Of a stretch of DNA of 64,000 nt, positions 8,638-10,486 are shown one piece after another. Every line of letters begins with the position of its first letter. Positions within the stretch are counted from its first letter, which is position 1. The notes under the pieces are model-generated. The model was not told where the DNA came from, made no database searches, and saw only the letters and a list, made by a program, of their open reading frames with translations. The DNA lies in NCBI GenBank assembly GCA_913030805.1, contig CAJWDL010000003.1, positions 1 to 64,000 on the forward strand, read 5' to 3'. Origin of the DNA: an uncultured Candidatus Pelagibacter sp. GTDB lineage: Bacteria; Pseudomonadota; Alphaproteobacteria; Pelagibacterales; Pelagibacteraceae. A program made the translations under genes and the position numbers.

Positions 8638-9231
8638 TTATTTTATAAGAAATATTCCAAGTTGTGAAAAGATATTTTTATATAACATATTGCCGCTTGT
8701 AATCTCTGAAATTCTTTCATTTGTTAAGCATAAAGATCTATCAATTTTTATATTTTTTTCTTTGCAGAAATTAACAAAATCTTGAATTGTGCACATATGT
8801 AAATTTGGGGTATTATACCATTCATTGGGTAAATTTTTTGTTAATGGCATTGTTCCCTTAAATAATAAGTGTAAACGAATTTTCCAATATCCAAAATTAG
8901 GAATTGAAACAATCGTTTGTTTTCCAATTCTAAGTAATTGCTTTAAAACTTTTTCAGGAAAAAGAAAAGCCTGAAGTGTTTGACTTAGTATAGCGTAGTC
9001 AAATGATTTGTCGGGAAATTGAACCAATTCTTTTTCTGCATCACCTTCAATAACCGAAAGACCTTTTGCAATACATTTTTGCACGAGATCTTTTTGTGGT
9101 TCTAGACCCCTAACATCATTCTGTTGATTGAATTTTAAATATTCCATAAGCGTTCCATCCCCACAACCGATATCTAACACTCTTTTGTTATTTTGAATTA
9201 TTTGTGATATTACTTCAAATTCTTTTTTCAT
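8638..9231 (-). CDS. metW: Methionine biosynthesis protein MetW (ORF extends to 9267; the MKKEFEVI start at 9231 is preferred)
   Basis: [18 protein letters not shown]-binding motif; [24 protein letters not shown]...[15 protein letters not shown]; downstream of metX. Confidence 0.92.
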
Positions 9232-10354
9232 TATTAATTTCTTTGTAAGTTGAATTAAGAAATTCACTCAATGTTTTTAATAATTTTGGTACGTTCAATA
9301 AAAAAGAATCATGGCCTTTGTCTGAATTAATTTCAACAAAACCAACATTGGCACCACAAGCATTTAAGGCCATAACTATTTCTTTGTTTTCAATTGTTGG
9401 ATAAAGCCAATCAGATGAAAATGAAATTACACAAAACTTAGATTTTGTATTTTTAAATGCTGAAGACAAATTACCATTAAATTGTTTTTCCAGATCAAAA
9501 TAATCCATAGCTCTAGTAATGTATAGGTAACTGTTAGCATCGAATCTATCTACAAACTTTGTTCCTTGATGACGCAGGTAGCTTTCTATCTGAAAATCTG
9601 CATCAAAACTAAATTTTAGACTTCCTGTATCCTGTAGCTTCCTTCCAAATTTTTCTTGTAAACTTTTTTTTGAAAGATAAGTAATATGAGCTGCCATTCT
9701 TGCTACTGCCAAACCCTTATCTGGAGATAAATTTGTCTTAAAGTAATTTCCATTATTCCAGGTGGGGTCAGCCATGATTGCCTGTCGCCCCAACTCATTC
9801 AATGCAATATTTTGCGCTGAATGACTTGCGCTACAAGCTATTGGAATAGCAGAGTGTGCTTTATTGGGATATAATGAAGCAAATTGTAAAACCTGCATAC
9901 CCCCCATTGATCCACCAGTGATTGAAAGTAGTTTATCAATACCCAAATATTCTAATAAGTAAATTTGGGCCTTGACCATGTCTCTGATTGTAATAACAGG
10001 AAACGTGGTTCCAAATAATTCATTAGTGTCAGGATTTATTTCTTTTGGTCCAAAACTACCCATGCATCCACCCAAAACATTTATACAAATAACAAAATAT
10101 TTATTTGTATCGATTGCTTTTCCAGGTCCTACAGCGGTTGCCCACCATCCTTCTTGTTTGGTAATCGGATTAATATTTGTGACAAACTGATCTCCGCTTA
10201 AAGCATGGAAAGCTAATATTGCATTACTCTTACTTTTATTCAAAGTTCCATATGTTTCATAAGCTATAGGAAAATTTTTAATTATCTTTCCACAGTCAAG
10301 TTCGAGTGATTGATTAACAATCAATTTTTTTATATTTTTTACTTCTTTATTCAT
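9215..10354 (-). CDS. metX: Homoserine O-acetyltransferase (start [10 protein letters not shown]; the longer ORF to 10396 reads through a terminator hairpin)
   Basis: Alpha/beta hydrolase: [36 protein letters not shown]; partner metW; SAM-II-like leader. Confidence 0.95.
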
Positions 10355-10367
10355 TGTTTGTTTCAAA

Positions 10368-10394
10368 CAAAAAAAAAGCCCAGCTAAACCGGGC
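10368..10394 (-). terminator. Intrinsic terminator between the SAM-II-like aptamer and metX
   Basis: Minus-strand RNA GCCCGGUUUAGCUGGGC (10394-10378) followed by a run of about nine U. Confidence 0.8.
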
Positions 10395-10400
10395 AAAAAA

Positions 10401-10455
10401 ACCTTTTTTAGCTGTTTTTTTCAAGCGCTCGCAATTAAGTTAAATCAGCGCTAAT
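10401..10455 (-). promoter_or_regulatory. SAM-II-type S-adenosylmethionine riboswitch upstream of metX
   Basis: Minus-strand RNA AGCGCUGAUUUAACUUAAUUGCGAGCGCUUGAAAAAAACAGCUAAAAAAGGU matches the SAM-II layout (GCGCUGAUUUAAC ... GCAAGCGC ... AGCUAAAAAGG), compared from memory. Confidence 0.88.
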
Positions 10456-10457
10456 CT

Positions 10458-10486
10458 TTTGTACTAAAAAGTACCCCTTTTGTCAA
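10458..10486 (-). promoter_or_regulatory. Putative sigma-70 promoter driving the riboswitch-metXW transcript
   Basis: On the minus strand: TTGACA (10486-10481), 17-nt spacer, TACAAA (10463-10458), just upstream of the aptamer. Confidence 0.65.

Follow-up and report, generated by a model that had tools for sequence, protein, structure and literature searches.

A SAM-II-type riboswitch upstream of metX as a candidate transcription-attenuation switch in the Pelagibacterales

SAM-II is among the best studied of the pseudoknot aptamers, yet its control of genes has hardly been tested. The crystallised example (structure 2QWY; sequence in PMC8494917) is a metX aptamer from the Sargasso Sea metagenome. 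An aptamer with the same core precedes the same gene in the window, a 64,000 nt stretch of DNA whose host group is the Pelagibacteraceae (SAR11), where it is followed by a hairpin and a run of uridines. SAM-II aptamers associated with terminators have been on record since 2005, and many precede one (PMC1273637, PMC2258182); the switch upstream of metX in the window is of that kind. The question this locus raises is how the aptamer might communicate with the hairpin, and whether that connection, rather than a direct effect on the ribosome binding site, would account for the control of metX.

The metX leader and its aptamer

The elements of the leader and the genes downstream are as follows.

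10458..10486, minus strand: promoter, read directly (TTGACA at 10486-10481, a spacer of 17 nt and TACAAA at 10463-10458)
10401..10454, minus strand: SAM-II-type aptamer, with the model scores given below
10451-10447 with 10429-10425, minus strand: aptamer stem P1 (GCGCU with AGCGC), the aptamer also having the GAUUUAA loop, UUGC and the conserved 3' strand GCUAAA
10402..10414, minus strand: 3' strand of aptamer P2, CAGCUAAAAAAGG, the proposed 5' half of an antiterminator, from its conservation in metX leaders
10414-10407, minus strand: segment CAGCUAAA of the aptamer strand, read directly
10378..10394, minus strand: intrinsic terminator hairpin GCCCGGUUUAGCUGGGC, about -10 kcal/mol, predicted from the sequence
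10381..10388, minus strand: UUUAGCUG, the loop and 3' arm segment complementary to CAGCUAAA and proposed 3' half of the antiterminator, from column conservation
10369..10377, minus strand: U9 tract of the terminator, read directly (8 or 9 U in relatives)
9215..10354, minus strand: metX, encoding homoserine O-acetyltransferase, the controlled gene, with its AUG at 10354 (NF001209, 518 bits, cut-off 331)
8638..9267, minus strand: metW, overlapping the end of metX (TIGR02081, 230 bits, cut-off 189.5)

Our reading of the minus strand agrees with a preliminary description of this DNA on where the promoter, aptamer strand, hairpin, U tract and start codon lie. Most relatives likewise have TTGACA and a TAC/TAGTA -10 region at a similar distance 5' of P1, as seen on comparing leaders; the metX promoter was missing from the list produced by a consensus scan because its -10 box lacks the final T. 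As expected of its class, the aptamer lies upstream of a methionine gene: metX and then metW are the neighbours downstream on the same strand, metW probably being part of the same transcript, whilst hisC and a prephenate dehydrogenase gene diverge upstream.

An Infernal search, proposed in the same description, matched the SAM-II models in the right place, but with scores below the Rfam gathering cut-offs for both RF01726 (31.5 bits, E 3e-4, cut-off 44) and RF00521 (22.9 bits, cut-off 36), these being thresholds set by curators rather than structural features. The native locus of the crystallised aptamer also falls under both, scoring 34.1 (cut-off 36) and 18.3 (cut-off 44), hence the Rfam thresholds do not exclude true members in this AT-rich clade. 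By comparison, a model built from 24 relatives, R1, containing no sequence from the genus of the window, gave the window aptamer 75.6 bits (E 4.4e-17), the next match within the window scoring 10.4 bits, which bears out the original assignment to the SAM-II type. The P1 stem, the conserved GAUUU loop, UUGC and GCUAAA are all found in the window aptamer, as are the conserved letters of both strands of the P2 pseudoknot, and there is a compensated change at one P1 pair among relatives. When aligned to the crystallised aptamer, GCGCUGAUUUAAC, AUUGC, AGCGC and AGCUAAAAA are all retained. On the grounds of this homology, the window aptamer would be expected to bind SAM.

A terminator loop complementary to the aptamer

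The 8 nt complementarity between CAGCUAAA and UUUAGCUG, first noticed in the sequence of the window, is present as described, is kept in the metX leaders of relatives and is beyond chance. In the 444 kb surveyed of the genome from which the window comes, 15 terminator-like hairpins reach -6 kcal/mol or below, and TAGCTG occurs only in that of metX; this uniqueness of the loop sequence led us to reject a generic terminator as the explanation. The metX hairpin also ranks first of the 15 for pairing with the aptamer strand, at -11.9 kcal/mol vs -7.4 kcal/mol for the next. Among hairpins given random loops, with the stem either kept or shuffled, the real pairing energy was reached in 0-1.3% (genus means).

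Leaders of metX were gathered from relatives through protein matches, rather than by searching for the pattern itself. Both the hairpin and the aptamer strand in its conserved form were found in 93 of 94 leaders, from the genera g1, g2, g3, g5 and g8; the stem of one of the 93 (L145) contains a mismatch. The 94th (L132) was missed by the script because its start codon is set too far upstream; a pattern search shows the hairpin in its genome. That independent search recovered the arrangement in at least 163 of 397 genomes of the family, from the same five genera, a figure that is a lower bound given the strictness of the pattern and the incompleteness of many genomes. Outside the family it gave no match in a class-wide sample of 380 alphaproteobacterial genomes, and the terminator and complement are missing from three other genera that have the aptamer.

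Within the 93 leaders, GCUAAA is invariant and is preceded by A in 90. Of the columns in the 17 nt hairpin, 2, 4, 6, 9, 11-13, 15 and 16 are invariant, whilst 3, 10 and 14 each vary once; column 8, one pair beside the core of the antiterminator, is variable, being mismatched in most g2 leaders. Hence columns 9-11 (UAG), in or beside the loop, are fixed, though a plain terminator would leave them free. The linker between aptamer and hairpin exists in 32 variants. Pairing in the terminator helix is 99.6%, and one of its pairs shows a compensated change (G-C/A-U); the antiterminator pairing stands at 89.6% across 36 distinct leaders, compared with 18-59% for slid versions of it. Covariation between the two sides had been suggested as a check: the complementarity is conserved in a loop otherwise free to change, but a formal test found no two-sided covariation of the antiterminator within the metX leaders, because the aptamer strand is invariant.

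Recent common descent alone is unlikely to explain this conservation, as the hairpin is common to clades with MetX proteins about 70% identical. In the MetX tree, {g5,g2} and {g1,g3,g8} form separate well supported clades and g4, the metX leaders of which have no terminator at all, is sister to the latter. The hairpin was therefore either ancestral, with a subsequent loss in g4, or acquired on two occasions; that the stem sequence is shared speaks for the former.

Folding order and the proposed switch

When the growing transcript was folded as far as hairpin column 14, 84 of 85 distinct leaders had the antiterminator as their minimum-energy form; with randomised loops it came first in 7-10% of cases. 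With the full stem transcribed, the antiterminator and terminator differ by -1.4 to +4.0 kcal/mol (means by genus), near-equal energies in this model, such as would be expected if a ligand were to tip the switch. The antiterminator extends beyond 8 nt, with nearly the whole 3' strand of P2, including GG(G), able to pair with the 5' arm, the loop and half of the 3' arm of the terminator, in a register that sets CAGCUAAA..(A)GG(G) opposite CC(C)..UUUAGCUG of the hairpin. The folding order and the pairing in relatives thus both uphold the earlier proposal that terminator and antiterminator are mutually exclusive. The P2 pseudoknot is beyond the scope of the nearest-neighbour model used, which cannot represent it, hence the SAM-bound state is taken from the known SAM-II fold.

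These elements suggest how the leader might work. Without SAM, the 3' strand of P2 (CAGCUAAA...GG) would pair with CC...UUUAGCUG in the nascent RNA, such that the terminator could not close and RNA polymerase would continue into metX. With SAM locking the P2 pseudoknot, this strand would be hidden, the GC-rich hairpin would close before the U9 tract and transcription would stop. The predicted direction, with SAM favouring the terminator and so switching the gene off, is that originally put forward, and fits the SAM-II literature. We consider it probable that this riboswitch is a transcription-attenuation OFF switch for metX, and with it metW; what the analysis shows is that the sequence elements are present and conserved, that the two pairings exclude each other and in which order they fold in silico, whereas SAM binding and SAM-dependent termination in the cell are what we infer. 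If so, a leader of about 100 nt may tune methionine synthesis in one of the most abundant groups of ocean bacteria.

The spacing of the leader bears on two other forms of control. In a translational switch, SAM-bound P2 would hide AAGG as a Shine-Dalgarno sequence and so block initiation, the hairpin being secondary; direct occlusion of this sort is the accepted model for the Sargasso Sea aptamer (PMC10907184, PMC6061858), and 27 of 44 g5 leaders have an in-frame AUG immediately after the purine tract. However, the tract abuts that upstream AUG with almost no spacing, and in the window AAGG lies about 47 nt upstream of the metX AUG, a distance from which the preliminary description had already judged direct occlusion improbable. 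An upstream AUG is also found in only one of four g1 leaders and one of 26 in g2, where it is out of frame, and in none from g3 or g8, whilst the terminator is near-universal in these genera. We therefore regard translational control as very unlikely here. Alternatively, the hairpin could both terminate transcription and block initiation at the nearby AUG in transcripts that escape. Terminators close to a start codon have been described as dual platforms (PMC2258182), and in most leaders of g5 and g2 the AUG comes within 0-4 nt of the end of the U tract; in the window it is 14 nt downstream, so any occlusion of initiation by the hairpin should be weaker, and dual control seems unlikely, if less so than occlusion by P2. 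Attenuation of transcription alone is thus the reading we prefer for this leader.

The crystallised aptamer and the same complement on other stems

The exact 52 nt sequence of the crystallised aptamer is present in two Pelagibacteraceae single-cell genomes. Both native copies are followed by GAUGCCCAGUUUAGCUGGGCUUUUUUUUUGGAUG, and in both genomes GCCCAGUUUAGCUGGGC-U9 and the metX AUG lie downstream of the aptamer. Whilst this RNA has been described as a rare translational SAM-II that occludes the ribosome binding site (PMC6061858, PMC10907184), its native context favours transcription attenuation, and the terminator 3' of the exact aptamer is apparently a new observation. The first AUG after the aptamer in these genomes is in frame with metX, which may explain the 'translational' label, but is not conserved among relatives. 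If this is true, the RNA of the crystal structure, which has also been used in much later biophysics, has been read with the wrong expression platform.

Complements of the aptamer strand also recur on different stem sequences. In another family of the order (family 2), the metX leaders have the stem ACCGCC..GGCGGU or ACCACC..GGUGGU, with UUAGUUG or UAGCUG in the loop as a complement of CAGCUAA that includes no more than a single G-U pair; in one leader, L005, the match is shorter. Leaders of bhmT have the stem ACCACCG..CGGUGGU and the loop CUUUAGC, in which the pairing is GCUAAAGCG:CGCUUUAGC, and in ten leaders of this type (L021, L029, L314, L318-L320, L324, L325, L331 and L332) the aptamer strand has its complement in the terminator loop. 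To our mind, no argument for selection of the complement for antitermination is stronger than its recurrence on different stems. When 23 pairs of strand and loop from Pelagibacterales and other Alphaproteobacteria were registered by hand, 53 of 69 flanking cells were paired, relative to a mean of 47.4 when shuffled and with 50 of 5000 shuffles reaching as high, a comparison that counts as weak support rather than proof because the registers were chosen by eye.

This recurrence bears on a further explanation, that the hairpin is a constitutive attenuator which limits metX expression, or yields a small leader RNA, irrespective of SAM. Such an arrangement has a precedent in metA of S. meliloti, where a terminator follows SAM-II and no antiterminator driven by it could be predicted (Scheuer et al., PMC9373788). 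Here, by contrast, there is an explicit antiterminator, which is conserved although its loop is free to vary and which is found again on different stems; we regard a constitutive attenuator as very unlikely. Closer to the SAM-dependent attenuator that we favour is SAM-II upstream of S. meliloti metZ, likened here from its published description (PMC9373788), which shares with the window a terminator, predicted to be SAM-dependent and accompanied by an observed leader sRNA, though in a high-GC genome unlike that of the window.

The SAM-II/SAM-V tandem upstream of bhmT in Ca. Pelagibacter ubique (PMC9481103, PMC11508383) also resembles the window in having SAM-II followed by an intrinsic terminator, but differs in its stem and in the SAM-V switch that comes after. 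A 2024 study found that the bhmT linker abolishes the response of SAM-II to SAM and that anti-linker oligonucleotides restore it, leaving the reason open (PMC11508383). The exact linker of HTCC1062 was not found in the genomes searched, the nearest relatives having 2-3 mismatches in 35; amongst relatives, CGCUUUAG of the loop is complementary to CUAAAGCG of the aptamer in L331, as is CGCUUUAGC to GCUAAAGCG in L021. An antiterminator stable at equilibrium, as deduced from these close relatives, would explain both the inactivation of SAM-II by the linker and its rescue by oligonucleotides. Hence the loop complement may account for the 'linker inactivation' of the tandem, an explanation that is apparently new and, if true, would give this puzzle a simple solution at the level of base pairs. 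The genome of the window itself has a weak SAM-V match (L334, G000:C10:33058-33116) of 27.6 bits, the cut-off being 41.

Different structures follow the aptamer in other genera. In 24 g4 metX leaders (L053-L063, L065, L068, L073-L075, L079, L085, L086, L088, L100 and L185-L187), a U tract is found after the aptamer, together with a conserved CUCACAAUUCA-like element that is complementary, save at one position, to UGAAUUGCGAG of the aptamer, the 5' strand of P2; individual leaders beat 78-100 of 100 shuffles. By its sequence this element may be a different expression platform, targeting the opposite strand of P2. In g9 (L091, L092, L094) and g12 (L089, L096, L097), a hairpin with no long U tract follows the aptamer upstream of metX, and that of g9 can pair with the P1/P2 region.

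Taken across the Pelagibacterales, the strand of SAM-II that takes part in binding the ligand could generally serve as the antiterminator, with its complement held in the loops of several terminator stems. The textbook direct-occlusion RNA would then be an attenuator, inactivation by the bhmT linker would reflect an antiterminator at equilibrium, and a sister genus group would have exchanged the platform for a complement of the opposite strand of P2. We judge the chances of this whole scheme being correct to be evenly balanced. What makes it of interest is that a textbook RNA would be reassigned and that SAM-II terminators of the order would follow a simple pairing rule open to test.

Nine loci in other Alphaproteobacteria (L290, L292, L293, L298, L301, L303-L305 and L308) also have SAM-II terminators, mostly with the stem CCGCC/GGCGG, in which the strand GCAGC or GCGGC has its complement in a segment of the loop, GCUGC or GCCGC; judging from these motifs, the same rule of antitermination may operate in high-GC genomes. 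At other alphaproteobacterial loci, where the strand is AGGUC, inspection places the complement apparently in the 5' arm of the terminator, not the loop. The terminator-aptamer pattern is also matched by six viral contigs. One contig filed as viral (L333, IMGVR_UViG_3300037340_000168) encodes a MetX 58% identical to that of the window, and could be host DNA.
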